From NCBI GenBank assembly GCA_030616775.1, contig JAUWWQ010000003.1:74794-138793 (forward strand): DNA of 64,000 bases, given 5' to 3'. Within the stretch, counting starts at the first letter, position 1. Every line of letters begins with the position of its first letter. This document shows, in pieces, positions 4,306 to 61,467 of the stretch. A program made the position numbers and the translations under genes. This stretch comes from Planctomycetota bacterium (GTDB taxonomy: Bacteria; Planctomycetota; Phycisphaerae; UBA1845). A model generated the notes under the pieces. That model did not search any database. It had not been told where the DNA came from and was given only the letters and a program-made list of their open reading frames with translations.

Positions 4306-7300
4306 ATGCCGGCTCTTTCCTTCACAGATCAACAGCTTCAAGCCACGCGGACAACCGGGCGGAGTGTCATCGTCTCGGCGGCGGCTGGATCGGGTAAGAC
4401 GGCGGTTCTAGCTGAGCGCTGCGCCTACCTGGTATGCGATGCTCCGCCCGATGTTCGTTGCAATGTGGACGAGTTGCTCGTGCTGACGTTTACCGACGCA
4501 GCAGCGGCGGAAATGCGATCCCGAATTGTCGAGACCATTCGAGAGCGGTTAAGGCAGCACCCGCATGACAATCGGCTGAAGGAACAAGTGGCGCTGGTGG
4601 ACGCCGCCCAGATATCAACGATCCATTCGTTCTGTCTGTGGCTTGTGCGCCGCTGGTTCAATCACCTAGACGTGGATCCGGCTGCCACAGTCCTGGATGA
4701 CGAAGAGACGACGCTGCTGAAAGACGAGGTACTCGACGCCATGTTGTCCGGTCTCTATGCGACGAGTAACTTGCCCGACGAGCCGCTTGGACGGGCCGAC
4801 ACAGACGCGACCCGAGCCTCATCCGTCAACCGAGCCGCGGGCTTTAGCCCGCGCGGACACCCGTCCAACCTGGATTATGCAGCTCTTCGGGGCTGCGATT
4901 CACCGGCGAAACTGCGCAAGGCACTTGGCCCCGCATTCATACAACTGGTGGACGACTACGGGTTGGGGGAGGATCGGAACATCACCAGGTTCATTCTGAG
5001 GTTGTTCGACTTCCTCACCTCGCTGCCTGCGCCGGAGGCGTGGCTACGCGAGGCGTGCGAATCGCTATCGGATTACCCGGAGAGAGTCGTGCTGACCATG
5101 GTCAGCGCCCTGAAGATTGAGCTGGATCGGCAGGTCGAGCACTGCGAGCTGACGGCTTCAACCATCAAGGCCGGTCATCCGAGCGGTCACTTTTATGCTT
5201 CGCAGATTGGCAACTATAGCGAGCAGCTCCGCATCTGGGCCGAGGCACTGGGAGAGACCCAGAGCGGCGCGCGAAATGCGGGCTCCGGCACGAAGATCGG
5301 CCCAGAGATCAGGGAGGCACTTGCCAGGTTTGAGACTGTTCAACGGCAGATCGCCGACTTCGAATTCAGCAAGGCGCGTGGCCCCAGACTGCCCAAAGAT
5401 GTTGAGCTCGCGGTTAAAGCGGTGCGTGACGCGGCCAGTGCACAACTCTCAGACGTCAAGAAACGCCTCTTCGGCGAACGTGTCAAACGGCGATTCGGGC
5501 TGTTCTCGGTCGAGGAATTGACGGAGGGCCTGAAGCGAACGGCCCCATATGTAGCCACCGTTGCGGGGCTTACGCTTGCGTTTCGAGACGCCTACCAGCG
5601 AAGGAAACGCGGGCTCAGCGTCCTGGATTTCGCCGACCTCGAACGATTGGCGTTTAAGCTGCTGCGTAGCAACGACGATCCCCGGAAACCCTCGGATGTT
5701 GCACGGGCGTTGCATCGCCGGTTTGCCTACGTCCTTGTCGACGAGTTTCAGGATATCAATCCCATCCAGCAGGCGATCATCGAGCTGGTCAGTCGTGAAT
5801 CCGACTCCGATCGGCCTGATAACCTTTTTGTGGTCGGCGACGTGAAACAGAGCATTTACCGTTTTCGCCTGGCAGAGCCGTCGATCTTCACCGAGCGGCT
5901 GACAAGGTTCCGCAAGAAGGCCGGCAACGGCGCAGCGGTGTCTTTGCAGAGCAACTTCCGAAGCCGCTCGGAAATCCTGGAAGCCGTCAACGCGGTCTTT
6001 CGGCAGCTCATGCGTGAAGGCTGCTCAGACATCGTCTACGACGCAGAAGCGGAGCTTCGGCCGGGCCGTGACGTCGACCCGGACACGCCACACGAGCCGG
6101 TCGAACTTCACCTGCTCGAACGGTCCTGGAGAAAGGACACCGGCAATGACGAAGAGCCGGAACGCGGCGTGGCCGATCTCTCCGATCCCGCCCGATGGAC
6201 GGCGATTGAACGCGAGGCCTTTTTGATCGGATCCCGCATCCGCACTTTTATGGAGTCCGGCGGATTCAGGCTCGACGGCAAGCCGCTGCGTTACCGTGAT
6301 ATTGCCGTTCTACTTCGAGCGGCCAGGATCAACGCCGAGCGTATGGCTACGATGCTTACGTCGATGGGCGTTCCGGCCTATGCCGACGTGGGCGGCTCTC
6401 TGTTCGGGGCCCGTGAGATTCGTGATATAGTCGCGGCGCTGGAGCTGCTTGATAACTTCCAGCAGGACATACCCTTAGCAGCCGTTCTTCGCAGCGGCAT
6501 CATGGGCCAGGCGTTGTCCGAAGATGACCTGGTGGAAATACGGTGTCTCGATCGTAACATTCCATTTCATGCCGCCGTTCGCCAATATGTAAAGCGCGGC
6601 GCCGACCCCGGCCTTCGGGAGAGGCTGTCGGCGTTGCTAGAGCGCATCAATCGCTATCGCACCGAGGTGCGCCGCCGCCCGCTGGCCGACGTGCTATGGA
6701 GTCTGTACGAACGGCAGGGGTTCCTCGCGTATGTGGGCGGGCTTCCGGGCGGCGCCCAGCGCCGTGCGAACCTGCTGAGACTCCACGAGTTGGCCCGGCG
6801 GTTCGGCTCGTTTCGCCAGCAGGGCTTGCACCGGTTCCTGCGGTTTATTCAGTCACTAGAAGACCAGAAGCAGAGCATAGCGTCCGCCCCGGCTGTTTCT
6901 GAAGCGGACGATGTCGTCCGAATCATGAGTATTCATAAGGCCAAGGGTCTGGAGTTCCCCGTGATCTTCGTGGCCGGCCTGGGTACCAAGTTCAACCTCG
7001 GCGATCGCAGCGGACGGATGATCTTCGAGCGCTCCACCAAGATTGGATTGCGTGTCGTCGACACGGAGCAGATGATCGAATACCCCTCCGCCGCCCATTG
7101 GCAGGTGGCCAACGAGATTGAGCAGACTACGCGTCATGAAGAGCTTCGCATTCTCTATGTGGCTATGACTCGCGCCCGTGATAAGCTGGTCCTTGTCGGG
7201 TCTTCACGTGATATTCAACGGTTTAACGATTGTGAGCACCACCCTTCAGGTCGTGTGGTGCTTCCGCGCGAGCCAGTGCCCGCGGCTCTGTGTTCCTTGA

Positions 7301-8316
7301 GCGTAGCCACCGCGACGACACCGCTGGACTGGCTGATGCCTGTGCTGGTGGCTGCACCTTGCGGTGCCGTACGCCGTGGAGTCGACGGGGTATCTAGCGA
7401 TCATCCGTTGTTCGATGTGCAACTTCACGGTGTGGAGGAAATGGCAAGCTGGCGGGCGACGGATCGCTTGGATGATCGCGAGCCTGTGGCGCGACGGGCG
7501 GCTGCTCGATGTGGGCCGCTGCCCAGCGACGAACCGCTTGCACCGGGTGATCCAGGCGTCGAGGAGGTGTTATCGCGAATCGAGTACGCCTATCCGGAGC
7601 TGGCCTCCACGTCGGTGCCGGCATCAATCGCGGCCAGCGAATTCAAAGGGGCCTACGATTTCATCCGCAACCCAGAGCAGCGCCAAGACGGATGTAACCA
7701 GGACGACTTCCGGGTGCTACCGCGGAAGTATGCCGCATTTGCGCCGGAGGAAGCCGCACGTCGCGGCGTGCTCACCCACCGCATTCTACAACACCTGGAC
7801 TTTACAAGGGCGGCGGACGCAGGCACCGTGGCATCGGAATTGCAGCGGATGGCGGCGGAGGGCCTGCTCAGCACCGAGGATCTGGCGGTGTTGGATCAGG
7901 CTTCGATTGAATGGTTCGTGTCGACGCCATTGGGGGCTGCGATCCGGCAGGCCGGCGACGGGTACCGCCGTGAATTTCTGTACATCGCGGCCGAGCCGCT
8001 GGCCTACTTCGATCGCTCTATCGACCTGCCGCCGGGTGATCATGTACTGGTGCGCGGGATTGTCGATGGTATCCTACCGGTTGCGGATGGCATCGATATC
8101 GTCGATTTTAAGACGGACGCAATCGACCCTGAAGAGACCAGCGCTCGCGCCGAGCGGTACCGGCCGCAAATGGCTCTTTATGCTCAAGCGATGTCGCGCC
8201 TGTGGCGGCGACCGGTGCGAGCCTGCTGGCTGGTGTTTCTGACAGCGAAGAGATGTCACGTTTGGCGTGACGGCGCGTGGGAAGAAGGCCATCGCTCCGT
8301 CGTTCGGCGGTCTTGA
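4306..8316 (+). CDS. addA: AddA-type helicase-nuclease subunit (double-strand break repair)
   Basis: AddA is the UvrD-like helicase and nuclease subunit of the AddAB complex, which resects double-strand DNA ends for RecA-dependent repair. Visible motifs are Walker A GSGKT (residues 28-32), Walker B DEFQD (479-483), VVGDVKQSIYRFR, the SIHKAKGLEFP segment, and YVAMTRARDKL. The C-terminal RecB-type nuclease is marked by GIVDGI and DIVDFKTD around residues 1250-1275. An in-frame TTG at 4282 would add eight residues; ATG 4306 fits the family start better. Residues about 135-190 are longer than usual for the family and contain a palindromic repeat at 4832-4863 that encodes AAGFSPRGH (177-185). No addB is present in the window. 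putA follows after 32 bases, suggesting co-transcription. Confidence 0.88.
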   Translation: MPALSFTDQQLQATRTTGRSVIVSAAAGSGKTAVLAERCAYLVCDAPPDVRCNVDELLVLTFTDAAAAEMRSRIVETIRERLRQHPHDNRLKEQVALVDAAQISTIHSFCLWLVRRWFNHLDVDPAATVLDDEETTLLKDEVLDAMLSGLYATSNLPDEPLGRADTDATRASSVNRAAGFSPRGHPSNLDYAALRGCDSPAKLRKALGPAFIQLVDDYGLGEDRNITRFILRLFDFLTSLPAPEAWLREACESLSDYPERVVLTMVSALKIELDRQVEHCELTASTIKAGHPSGHFYASQIGNYSEQLRIWAEALGETQSGARNAGSGTKIGPEIREALARFETVQRQIADFEFSKARGPRLPKDVELAVKAVRDAASAQLSDVKKRLFGERVKRRFGLFSVEELTEGLKRTAPYVATVAGLTLAFRDAYQRRKRGLSVLDFADLERLAFKLLRSNDDPRKPSDVARALHRRFAYVLVDEFQDINPIQQAIIELVSRESDSDRPDNLFVVGDVKQSIYRFRLAEPSIFTERLTRFRKKAGNGAAVSLQSNFRSRSEILEAVNAVFRQLMREGCSDIVYDAEAELRPGRDVDPDTPHEPVELHLLERSWRKDTGNDEEPERGVADLSDPARWTAIEREAFLIGSRIRTFMESGGFRLDGKPLRYRDIAVLLRAARINAERMATMLTSMGVPAYADVGGSLFGAREIRDIVAALELLDNFQQDIPLAAVLRSGIMGQALSEDDLVEIRCLDRNIPFHAAVRQYVKRGADPGLRERLSALLERINRYRTEVRRRPLADVLWSLYERQGFLAYVGGLPGGAQRRANLLRLHELARRFGSFRQQGLHRFLRFIQSLEDQKQSIASAPAVSEADDVVRIMSIHKAKGLEFPVIFVAGLGTKFNLGDRSGRMIFERSTKIGLRVVDTEQMIEYPSAAHWQVANEIEQTTRHEELRILYVAMTRARDKLVLVGSSRDIQRFNDCEHHPSGRVVLPREPVPAALCSLSVATATTPLDWLMPVLVAAPCGAVRRGVDGVSSDHPLFDVQLHGVEEMASWRATDRLDDREPVARRAAARCGPLPSDEPLAPGDPGVEEVLSRIEYAYPELASTSVPASIAASEFKGAYDFIRNPEQRQDGCNQDDFRVLPRKYAAFAPEEAARRGVLTHRILQHLDFTRAADAGTVASELQRMAAEGLLSTEDLAVLDQASIEWFVSTPLGAAIRQAGDGYRREFLYIAAEPLAYFDRSIDLPPGDHVLVRGIVDGILPVADGIDIVDFKTDAIDPEETSARAERYRPQMALYAQAMSRLWRRPVRACWLVFLTAKRCHVWRDGAWEEGHRSVVRRS
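4832..4863 (+). repeat. Palindromic repeat inside addA, read in frame
   Basis: The core CGCGGGCTTTAGCCCGCG is a perfect palindrome with a TT centre (4836-4853), flanked by GAGC on the left and CGGACACCCG on the right. The same extended sequence occurs between genes at 17418 and, with CGCAGGC in place of CGCGGGC, inside mqnE at 60479. Here it adds no stop codon and encodes AAGFSPRGH, in the same frame as the mqnE copy. Confidence 0.85.
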
Positions 8317-11549: not shown

Positions 11550-11577
11550 GGGCCGCAGGCTTTGGCCTGCGCGGGTA
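11550..11577 (+). repeat. Palindromic repeat, intergenic copy
   Basis: The core CCGCAGGCTTTGGCCTGCG is followed by CGGG. It belongs to the same family as the copies at 4832, 17418, 19746 and 60479 but has a G in the loop. It sits between the short peptide frame and the end of the convergent GT9 gene, where the hairpin could also act in termination. Confidence 0.75.
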
Positions 11578-17417: not shown

Positions 17418-17449
17418 GAGCCGCGGGCTTTGGCCCGCGCGGACGTCCG
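17418..17449 (+). repeat. Palindromic repeat between adk and the PpiC-like gene
   Basis: The sequence GAGCCGCGGGCTTTGGCCCG followed by CGCGGACGTCCG matches the addA copy over the whole element, including the right flank CGGAC..CCG, apart from the loop base and two flank bases. It sits in the 86-base gap between two genes of one leftward operon, so it would be transcribed as a hairpin in the message. Confidence 0.85.
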
Positions 17450-19634: not shown

Positions 19635-19840
19635 GTACCATGTTTCACAAGTAATACGACTATAAGCTGTGCCGAGAATCCTTTCTCGGAACCGCCAGAG
19701 GACCGAGAAGGGATTCTCGGTCCAGCGAAAGTCCTGCTACTATCTGAGCCGCGGGCTTCAGCCCGCGCGGTGTTCCGCGCAGGCTAAAGCCTGCGGCTCG
19801 GCGCGTGATCTATAGTCGTAGTATTTATGAAACACGGTGC
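19635..19840. repeat. Nested fold-back element with 31-base terminal inverted repeats
   Basis: The outer arms at 19635-19665 and 19810-19840 are inverted repeats matching at 25 of 31 bases. Inside are a second inverted pair (19672-19689 and 19703-19720, 17 of 18 bases) and then two head-to-head copies of the palindromic repeat (19746-19799). The element fills most of the gap between two convergent genes, and its right arm reaches the stop codon of the sulfatase gene. It codes for no protein. It could be a miniature transposable element, a bidirectional terminator, or both. Confidence 0.7.
19746..19799. repeat. Inverted pair of palindromic repeats
   Basis: The left copy is GAGCCGCGGGCTTCAGCCCG plus CGCGG, and the right copy is its inverted relative with CGCAGGCTAAAGCCTGCGGC. 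Only four bases (TGTT) separate them. The left copy has the GCGGGC arm, like the addA copy, and the right has the GCAGGC arm, like the mqnE copy, so both subtypes occur side by side. Paired REP elements in other bacteria are arranged in the same way. Confidence 0.8.
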
Positions 19841-21252
19841 TAGTTGCGAGATCCTATGTATCCCAATGCTCTTAGCGCATCAATATCAACGTCAGGCGTC
19901 AGGTCATGTACGGCCACGTCGGCGGGAGGGTCCGGCATGATTGCCATAAATTCGGCGACGCGCTGTGGGTGATCCTTCGCCATGTCCCGATTGGCATTTG
20001 GATCGGTTCGCAGATCGAAGAGCCGCGGCACCGGGTCATAGGCTTTTCGGATCATCTGATGCCCCTCCCAGATTACACTCCGAAGGTGCACGCCGTAGTC
20101 GGTCTCACTGAACATAGGCCACGGATCGACGCGTTCACCTCGCATAAGAGGAACAAGAGAACGCCCGCGGGTGGGCGGAGCCGGGATTCCCACAAGCTGA
20201 AGTACCGTGGGCATCACGTCTTTCAGGCCCACACTCTGTCTGACCACCCCAGGCGCTAATCCCGGCCCGACAATGACCAACGGCACTCGCAGGCATTCAG
20301 GATAGATCGTACCGTAGTGGCCCACCGAGCCGTGTTCGCCGAATTCTTCGCCGTGGTCGGATAAAAAAACGACAATGGTGCGTTCAAGCTCACCGCATCG
20401 CTCCAAGAACTCGAAAAACCCACCGAGGAGCTGGTCGGCCCGGGCCACACCAGCGTCATATAAATCGGATAGGAACTTGATATTGCCCGGCGATAGACGG
20501 CGCCCTTGTTTCTTGAAATCGAAATCATCACGGAGATAGTCATCGAAGGGTTCCGCGTCCGGCGATCGGAACCTCGAAGCCCACGGCTCCCAGGGTTCGT
20601 ACGGCGCATGCAGGTCGTAGCCGTGCACGAAAATGAAGTAGGGTTCTTCGGGTTGAAATCGCTCGATCTGTTCTTGTGCCAGTACGATGGCCTTGTCTAG
20701 TGCACATGATTTCAAACCGTTTTTCCCTTCCCCGGAAACCACGTAACGCTCGAATCCACGGCCGAAGCCGTAATAAGCAGCCACGTTTCCTCCTCCCGTG
20801 TAGGCAAACGTTCGGTACCCGTCCCGCTTGAGCACCTCGGGCAGTGTGGGAATTCGATTCCAGAGACACACGCCCGGCGTAGTGACCCCGTGGGTCGTGG
20901 GGTAAAGTCCCGTAAACAACGTCATGTGCGCCGGCGCGGTCCAAGAACACTCGGAAATGACACTTTCAAAACGCACGCCGCGTTCGGCCAGCCGGTCGAC
21001 TGACGGACTCGTGTTCCGTTTGTAGCCGTAGCAGCCCAACCGATCGGGCCGGAGCGTGTCCACCGAAATCAAGATCACGTTCCATTTACCATCTCGCTGC
21101 ATCGCCACGGACACCGGCTTGGCACTACTCTCAGCGGGTTTGCATCCCGCAACAAAGAAGATGCCGACCACAAGCCCAAACAGAAAGGCCTGTGCTGATG
21201 CAACATGGGCACCGTGACGAATCGAGTTGGATGTCGGACTTACGACTCTCAT
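19840..21252 (-). CDS. Sulfatase / alkaline phosphatase superfamily lipoprotein
   Basis: The signal sequence ends in lipobox FVAGC. The N-terminal metal site is ISVDTLRPDRLGCYGY, the nucleophile region is SWTAPAHMTLFTGLYPTTHG, and the second metal site is FLSDHGEEFGEHG. The classical formylglycine motif C/S-x-P-S-R is not present. The WTAPAH form suggests a Thr-type hydrolase or phosphatase relative instead of a standard sulfatase. A TAGGAG ribosome binding site precedes ATG 21252. It lies downstream of a GT-C membrane protein, so action on an envelope glycan is possible but inferred. Confidence 0.78.
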   Translation of the reverse strand: MRVVSPTSNSIRHGAHVASAQAFLFGLVVGIFFVAGCKPAESSAKPVSVAMQRDGKWNVILISVDTLRPDRLGCYGYKRNTSPSVDRLAERGVRFESVISECSWTAPAHMTLFTGLYPTTHGVTTPGVCLWNRIPTLPEVLKRDGYRTFAYTGGGNVAAYYGFGRGFERYVVSGEGKNGLKSCALDKAIVLAQEQIERFQPEEPYFIFVHGYDLHAPYEPWEPWASRFRSPDAEPFDDYLRDDFDFKKQGRRLSPGNIKFLSDLYDAGVARADQLLGGFFEFLERCGELERTIVVFLSDHGEEFGEHGSVGHYGTIYPECLRVPLVIVGPGLAPGVVRQSVGLKDVMPTVLQLVGIPAPPTRGRSLVPLMRGERVDPWPMFSETDYGVHLRSVIWEGHQMIRKAYDPVPRLFDLRTDPNANRDMAKDHPQRVAEFMAIMPDPPADVAVHDLTPDVDIDALRALGYIGSRN

Positions 21253-60043: not shown

Positions 60044-60225
60044 CGGAGACATGCGGCTACTCGTGGTACCGCCCCAATCCTGGTCAGAGGGGCGGTCGTC
60101 GCACCGAGAGTCATGGATTATACCCTTCCGGTGTGGCGTCAGGTCTGCCACAGTGCGAGCACGGTGCTTGTATGTAAGGCCGCCGTCCACCAACTGCGAG
60201 ATACCTGCCAAGTCAAGTGTGCCAG

Positions 60226-61467
60226 ATGGCAGCCACCACAGGACAACAGTTCCGAGACATCCGGGACAAGCTTGACGCCGGCGGGCCTCTGACCCTCGAG
60301 GACGGCGTGCGGCTTTATGAATCGCGCGACATCCACACCCTCGGGGAGCTGGCCAATAGCATTCGCGAGCGCCTCCACGGCCGCCGGGCCTACTACAACT
60401 TCAACCTGCACATCAACTACACGAACTATTGCGTTCTTCGCTGCAAGTTCTGCTCGTTCCACCGCCCCTATCCGAAAGGAGCCGCAGGCTTTAGCCTGCG
60501 CGGACACTCAAAGCAGAAAAACATCGACAGTTCGGTCCATGACAACGCCGGCTACGAGCTGTCGATTGACGAAATCGTCACCCGGGCAAAAGGCGTTTAC
60601 GCACGCGGTGCAACGGAAGTGCACATTACAGGCGGCTTGCATCCTGCCCTCCCGTTCTCGTATTACACCGACATGTGCAAGGCGATTCGTGAAGCCTGCC
60701 CGCACATTCACATCAAAGCCTTTACCGCAATCGAGATCATCCATTTCGCGCGAATCAGCAAGCCGCGGCTGTCGATTGGCGAAGTCCTGACTCGCCTGCG
60801 GGAGGCCGGTCTGAGCAGCCTCCCCGGCGGAGGGGCGGAAATCTTCGACGACCGCGTGCATGATGAGGCCTTTAAGACGAAGGTGGGCGAGGCGGAGTGG
60901 TTCGATGTCCATCGCACCGCCCACGAGCTGGGCATCTTCACCAACGCGACGATGCTGTACGGCCACGTCGAAACACCGGCTGAACGGATCCAACATCTGA
61001 TCAAACTGAGTGAACACCAGAAGGAGAGCCTGCGATCAGGCAAGGCCCATTTCAACTGTGTCGTCCCACTTTCCTTCGTTCCTGAAGGAAGTGAACTGTC
61101 TCACCTGCCGGGTCCAAGTGGTCTCGATGACCTAAAGACGCTGGCGATTAGTCGCATGATGTGTCCCAACATCCCCCACATCAAGGCCTTTTGGATCATG
61201 CAGACACCGAAGCTGGCCCAGGTGTCCCTCAACTGGGGGGTCGATGATATCGACGGCACGGTGGTTTACTACGATATCACCAAACGCGAGGGCGGCGGGA
61301 CCACCCGCCAGGAGCTGACTGTCGACAAGCTCAGACGGCTAATTGTCGAGGCCGGCTGCAGACCGGTCGAACGCGACAGCCTGTACCGCCCCGTGATCCG
61401 CGATGAAACCACATGGCAAATCGAGGGTCAGTCGTGGTCCGTGACGTACTCCCCGAATCGGGCCTGA
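60226..61467 (+). CDS. mqnE: Aminofutalosine synthase (radical SAM, menaquinone pathway)
   Basis: MqnE makes aminodeoxyfutalosine in the futalosine route to menaquinone. The radical SAM cluster is Cys69-x3-Cys73-x2-Cys76 in NYCVLRCKFCSFH. Other matches are HITGGLHPALPF, SLPGGGAEIFDD, FTNATMLYGHVE, and PVERDSLYR at the end. Just after the cluster, residues about 83-108 are longer than usual and contain a palindromic repeat that encodes AAGFSLRGH (86-94). The start may be ATG 60226 or GTG 60217. No other mqn gene is in the window. Confidence 0.87.
   Translation: MAATTGQQFRDIRDKLDAGGPLTLEDGVRLYESRDIHTLGELANSIRERLHGRRAYYNFNLHINYTNYCVLRCKFCSFHRPYPKGAAGFSLRGHSKQKNIDSSVHDNAGYELSIDEIVTRAKGVYARGATEVHITGGLHPALPFSYYTDMCKAIREACPHIHIKAFTAIEIIHFARISKPRLSIGEVLTRLREAGLSSLPGGGAEIFDDRVHDEAFKTKVGEAEWFDVHRTAHELGIFTNATMLYGHVETPAERIQHLIKLSEHQKESLRSGKAHFNCVVPLSFVPEGSELSHLPGPSGLDDLKTLAISRMMCPNIPHIKAFWIMQTPKLAQVSLNWGVDDIDGTVVYYDITKREGGGTTRQELTVDKLRRLIVEAGCRPVERDSLYRPVIRDETTWQIEGQSWSVTYSPNRA
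60479..60510 (+). repeat. Palindromic repeat inside mqnE, read in frame
   Basis: The core CGCAGGCTTTAGCCTGCG (60483-60500) is a perfect palindrome, with GAGC to its left and CGGACACTC to its right. It is read in the same frame as the copy in addA and gives AAGFSLRGH where addA has AAGFSPRGH. It lies ten residues after the third iron-sulfur cysteine. Confidence 0.85.

Follow-up and report, generated by a model that had tools for sequence, protein, structure and literature searches.

The window analysed here, a 64,000-nucleotide stretch of a Planctomycetota genome, carries several copies of a palindromic repeat, two of which lie inside the protein-coding genes addA and mqnE. The initial annotation had placed copies at 4832, 11550, 17418 and 60479 and an inverted pair at 19746, and all of them are present, the pair at 19746 (plus strand) and 19774 (minus strand). 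The features of the window are:

4306..8316 (alternative start 4282), plus strand: addA-like gene carrying a REP copy; ORF above the NCBIfam TIGR02785 cut-off
4832..4857, plus strand: REP copy in addA, read RAAGFSPRG; matched by pattern and weight matrix; same copy in the sister species G002, absent in G004
11550..11575, plus strand: intergenic REP copy; pattern match
17418..17443, plus strand: intergenic REP copy; pattern match
19746..19771, plus strand: REP copy forming the left member of an inverted, REPIN-like pair; pattern match
19774..19799, minus strand: right half of the pair; its 28-nt spacing recurs 22 times genome-wide
60217..61467, plus strand: mqnE gene carrying a REP copy; TIGR03700, Foldseek match to MqnE 6xig
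60463..60555, plus strand: MqnE hypervariable loop 3' of the CxxxCxxC motif; alignments of relatives and AlphaFold model
60479..60504, plus strand: REP copy in mqnE, read GAAGFSLRG; matched by pattern and weight matrix; the corresponding position in G002 holds a decayed or altered copy

The repeat is a REP-type element, CYGAGCCGCRGGCTTYAGCCYGCGCGGA, laid out as CY-GAGCCGCRGGC-TTYA-GCCYGCGCGGA, with eight stem pairs, one bulged C and the loop TTYA. It had been described as a 32-base palindrome; the palindromic repeat is real, but what is conserved is a unit of about 26-33 nt in which the stem accounts for 8 bp. All eight stem pairs are retained in more than 90% of 169 copies, and pair 7-18 shows a two-sided exchange between G-C and A-T (79 copies A-T, 75 G-C). 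Conservation begins at CY, immediately 5' of GAG, and the unpaired conserved motif is GAG(C), not the GTAG tetranucleotide that precedes many REP hairpins. REP tags are described as "most often GTAG", and RAYTs as recognising GTAG-tagged REPs (PMC8266576); GTAG is therefore the usual tag and not a universal one. Nor is the CGTC terminal tag of Rickettsia RPE-4 and RPE-6 present: the element ends in GAGC / GCGCGGA, and CGTC occurs 3' of some copies without being conserved.

Within the window, six matches were found against 0.86 expected, a number reached by no shuffle. The 4.45-Mb genome to which the window belongs (G000) contains about 140 to 170 dispersed copies: a 16-nt core gave 139 matches genome-wide versus one with a reversed-pattern control, and a weight matrix applied to 763 kb of REP-bearing segments gave 191 hits versus none in the reversed control. 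Many copies form inverted pairs of the REPIN/BIME kind (22 at exactly 28-nt spacing and 7 at 58-66 nt genome-wide), and tandem arrays with 33-39 nt spacing are also present. The inverted pair of the window is embedded in a larger palindrome of MITE-like form (19640-19880) with outer repeats TGTTTCAYAAGT...ATGAAACACGGTRCT, and pairs with identical flanking sequence occur at several places in the same genome and in G002.

As is typical of REP elements, the copies are predominantly intergenic. The in-gene count covers the REP-bearing segments (763 kb), whose ORFs were called from codon usage with a home-made program trained on these segments. Of 160 good copies, 34 fall in ORFs against a coding share of 79% (binomial p about 1e-53), showing that genes are avoided. 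Well inside ORFs there are nonetheless 29 copies, inserted in frame in unrelated genes as reported for RPE-4/6; the hosts include AddA, MqnE, Mfd, GatB and DapF, and some carry more than one copy: three in AlaS, two in CysS, four in a UvrA-like protein and two in a xanthine-dehydrogenase-like (XDH) protein. The initial annotation read the addA and mqnE copies as AAGFSPRGH and AAGFSLRGH; they appear as RAAGFSPRGH and GAAGFSLRGH in ORFs that match addA_Gpos and MqnE. It also attached weight to their common frame and orientation, a point that did not survive the wider count. Internal copies use the three frames of the coding strand 11, 5 and 3 times and two frames of the opposite strand 5 times each, the always-stopped sixth frame never. 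The frame blocked by TTTAG holds three copies only, all with TTCAG. With all five open frames used, and the AddA/MqnE frame accounting for 5 of the 29, the frame shared by the two window copies is attributable to chance, and a frame preference of the repeat was rejected.

Of the paired findings named beforehand as speaking against insertion, absence of frame preference and absence of boundaries among in-gene copies, only the former was obtained. The addA ORF scores 827.7 bits against NCBIfam addA_Gpos (TIGR02785; cut-off 707.65). In G004 its site is empty (DPTRDSPT-----PSD versus DATRASSVNRAAGFSPRGHPSN), exactly the REP-coded residues being missing, and the REP-coded residues of GatB are likewise missing in G004 and G026. 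These empty sites bear out the proposal that a mobile palindromic repeat has entered genes in frame. In the suggested comparison with relatives, the segment was thus missing from AddA of G004; in MqnE it falls in a loop whose length in relatives varies between 9 and 67 residues. Relatives also vary at the REP positions of CysS, UvrA and Mfd in alignments.

The mqnE ORF scores 421.4 bits against NCBIfam MqnE (TIGR03700), slightly below the cut-off of 434.55, and the best PDB match of its AlphaFold model by Foldseek is the solved MqnE 6xig. Mapping the insert on this model, as had been suggested, places it in a region of low confidence: pLDDT is mostly over 90 and falls under 50 at residues 87-103, overlapping the REP-coded residues 83-91. 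The loop, which follows the CxxxCxxC motif, has received independent REPs in G000, in G013 (a long-loop form) and in G047 (an inverted pair in another frame).

The sister species G002 (CP070827.1, Phycisphaerales bin11), which belongs to the same genus as the window's species, carries REPs at the identical nucleotide in AddA, Mfd and XDH, and eroded copies in FTCD and MqnE. About half of its elements have a 25-nt loop, GGAATGGAATCYCGATCTATCGGGA, instead of TTYA. Nine orthologous loci with matching flanks clearly carry the long loop in G002 and the short loop in G000 (838379, 2323109, 2479636, 2649573, 2651446, 3161577, 3474810, 3612945 and 3003251), and a tenth (5144362) matches on one flank only. 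The loop replacement is exemplified by L285, L301 and L297 in G002 and by L323 and L324 in the window's genome. Since the outer-stem type, A-T or G-C, agrees at 9 of the 10 loci, the insertion looks, from sequence comparison, to be shared by the two species, with the loop alone changed. The NrnA-like and dGTPase loci have the long loop in both. At a VWA protein the outgroup G001 has the short loop, which indicates a change from short to long there. The change adds 21 nt and preserves the frame; either nested insertion or copying off another element could have produced it. No earlier report of loop exchange at the same locus between species was found in the literature searched.

The genome of the window encodes eight Y1_Tnp genes, all of them stand-alone and none flanked by the exact consensus REP. 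The nearest case is a stand-alone RAYT at C88:25700-26900 (L098 / L132), which has a related variant, GAGCCGCGGGCGCCAGCCCGCGGACAT, in its flanks; there this palindrome and a second one, CACCGGGCTCGCGCCCGGTGCTCCG, make up an array. In four relatives (G021, G036, G042 and G049), a RAYT gene lies between inverted copies of the window's own REP. RAYTs of this kind, here termed clade A, score higher to NCBIfam REP_Tyr_transpos than to IS200; clade A was not found in the window's genome, and REP copy number does not track its presence across genomes. The HUH motif is kept in all 23 RAYTs compared. The solved structures nearest to the RAYT carry no annotation beyond transposase. In the RAYT tree, most AlaS-resident RAYTs stand apart from free-standing ones with moderate support.

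RAYT genes were also found nested, in frame and free of stops, within housekeeping enzymes of related Phycisphaerae (PurH, AlaS, ValS and LeuS). About 20 of 60 genomes carry such a gene, a lower bound in which clade B lay outside the systematic search and which includes two weaker cases, an N-terminal fusion to MutS (G030) and one in a restriction-type protein (G018). In ValS (G021, G036), LeuS (G036) and PurH (G042, G049), the whole REP-RAYT-REP unit is in frame and stop-free within the ORF. The occurrences given by an extended search, by host and clade, are:

PurH, clade A: G042, G046, G059, G049
PurH, clade B: G001, G009, G013, G051, G030 (truncated in G030 by the contig end)
AlaS, clade C: G013, G015, G017, G019, G029, G031, G033, G048 (two in G048)
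ValS: G038

Pfam placed Y1_Tnp between split halves of the host domain in 8 of 8 ORFs scanned (ValS, PurH, LeuS and AlaS), and the G001 PurH scores above the REP_Tyr_transpos cut-off of NCBIfam. The PurH alignment shows a single loop with eight inserts from two unrelated RAYT clades, empty in G000, G002 and G011. The G042 and G046 assemblies are single contigs, and no better PurH was present among the matches listed for G042, which argues against an assembly error or a spare copy. For the G042 PurH-RAYT chimera, AlphaFold gave a mean pLDDT of 50.5 from an input of 11 sequences only, and this poor model was set aside. In AlaS, the site that holds RAYTs in G013, G015 and G033 holds a REP pair in the window's genome. 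At the same AlaS site, G002 carries an in-frame GGGACGAA minisatellite (L247). Nested AlaS RAYTs of relatives (L361, L363, L492, L494 and L529) are surrounded by other repeat peptides, SRDREGAN and PLPYGRGSD, which look like in-frame translations of another REP family. A literature search that left subscription papers and preprints aside turned up no description of housekeeping enzymes with RAYT genes nested in frame.

Taken together, these observations make it very probable that the repeat is a REP of the type moved by RAYTs, that its in-gene copies survive in tolerant loops, and that REP-flanked RAYTs live in enzymes in the same manner. The element would be a non-autonomous single-strand hairpin, of the type mobilised by Y1/HUH transposases. 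A copy landing in a gene would survive only where the frame is kept, no stop is introduced and the site is a tolerant surface loop; many such landings may be harmless, given that a stop interrupts the hairpin in just one of its six frames. Harmless copies would then be inherited and slowly erode. The REP-flanked RAYT genes within PurH, AlaS, ValS and LeuS may represent the autonomous version in the same clade with the same habit. A RAYT as the mover is suggested by these flanks; the GAGC tag, which differs from the GTAG of studied RAYTs, counts against it, as do the want of exact-consensus flanks at the eight Y1_Tnp genes of the window's genome, the failure to find clade A there and a REP copy number that varies independently of clade A across genomes.

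A rival reading, in which gene-calling errors or chance matches account for the in-gene copies of what is otherwise a plain intergenic REP or a transcription terminator, is very improbable. The avoidance of genes fits that idea, and a few in-gene calls do fall near the ends of genes or in ORFs of doubtful standing (C10, C46 and the tail of C12). Against it, copies interrupt proteins of curated families in mid-sequence, between conserved stretches, the control was free of chance matches, and copies recur in a sister species of about 88% identity and are missing from other relatives. The alignments refute such an origin for AddA, MqnE, GatB, Mfd, AlaS and CysS. Selection of the in-frame copies for a function, for example as linkers, translation regulators or recruited peptides, could account for the persistence of several copies between two species (Mfd, AddA, XDH) and for the independent hits on MqnE in three lineages. 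We regard it as improbable, since the copies use all open frames and both strands, encode unrelated peptides, are eroded or lost in relatives and, in MqnE, form a segment predicted to be disordered.

Spread by another mobile element, be it a MITE dependent on a DDE transposase or something RPE-like whose mover is unknown, would leave the RAYT link incidental. This is unlikely, even with many inverted pairs of the genome lying within the longer MITE-like element with outer repeats and with the cognate RAYT not found there: the bulk of copies lies outside the MITE, and the same REP flanks RAYT genes, inverted and in frame within host genes, in four relatives. Movement by a RAYT is the reading we retain. 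REP-flanked RAYT transposons of this clade probably persist as in-frame, translated insertions in single-copy essential enzymes (PurH, AlaS, ValS, LeuS), one loop of the host protein accommodating the entire transposase and the short REPs of AddA and MqnE being non-autonomous relatives. A frameshift or careless loss of the element would harm the host when the transposase forms part of an essential enzyme chain, and the lifestyle would be intein-like without splicing. On this reading the host enzymes would be translated together with the insert and remain functional, and the nested RAYTs may be active.

In-gene REPs were previously a curiosity from one 2013 survey. A sister-species pair with empty, filled, eroded and loop-swapped sites makes the life history of a REP traceable locus by locus, and RAYT genes with REP flanks in frame inside single essential enzymes constitute a surprising lifestyle for a mobile element. 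They raise the questions of whether an essential tRNA synthetase or PurH can fold and work when one of its loops holds a complete HUH transposase, and whether nesting shelters the element from loss. For annotation, "transposase" hits on such proteins are to be read as part of housekeeping enzymes.

The closest known systems are REP/REPIN elements with their RAYTs (REPtrons), which likewise are short bulged hairpins, dispersed and mostly intergenic, with inverted pairs and RAYT flanks. Di Nocera et al. (2013) reported REPs inside coding genes of several species and phyla, including uvrA, recB and tRNA synthetases, and suggested insertion into loops (PMC3733652). The present family differs in its GAGC tag, which is neither GTAG nor CGTC, in the loop exchange between species and in the nesting of RAYT genes in host enzymes. 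The initial comparison with Rickettsia palindromic elements holds for in-frame insertion into unrelated protein genes; the element itself belongs to the REP/RAYT world, though RPE-4 and RPE-6 are themselves CGTC-tagged REPs (PMC3733652). Unlike RPE-4/6, it lacks that tag, avoids genes overall and resides in a planctomycete known from metagenomes. RAYTs share the Y1/HUH superfamily with IS200/IS605 transposases, but clade A scores higher to REP_Tyr_transpos and its flanks are REPs. Nested RAYTs resemble inteins as mobile, nuclease-bearing, in-frame inserts in conserved enzymes, whereas they occupy variable loops rather than active sites; Pfam found only host domains and Y1_Tnp, and no Hint/intein domain, in the eight ORFs scanned, so that no protein splicing is implied. 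Because in-frame REPs were already known from the 2013 survey and from RPE-4/6, the feature in the window, a REP family with a GAGC tag, belongs to a known kind: its behaviour is familiar, its family and lineage are new.
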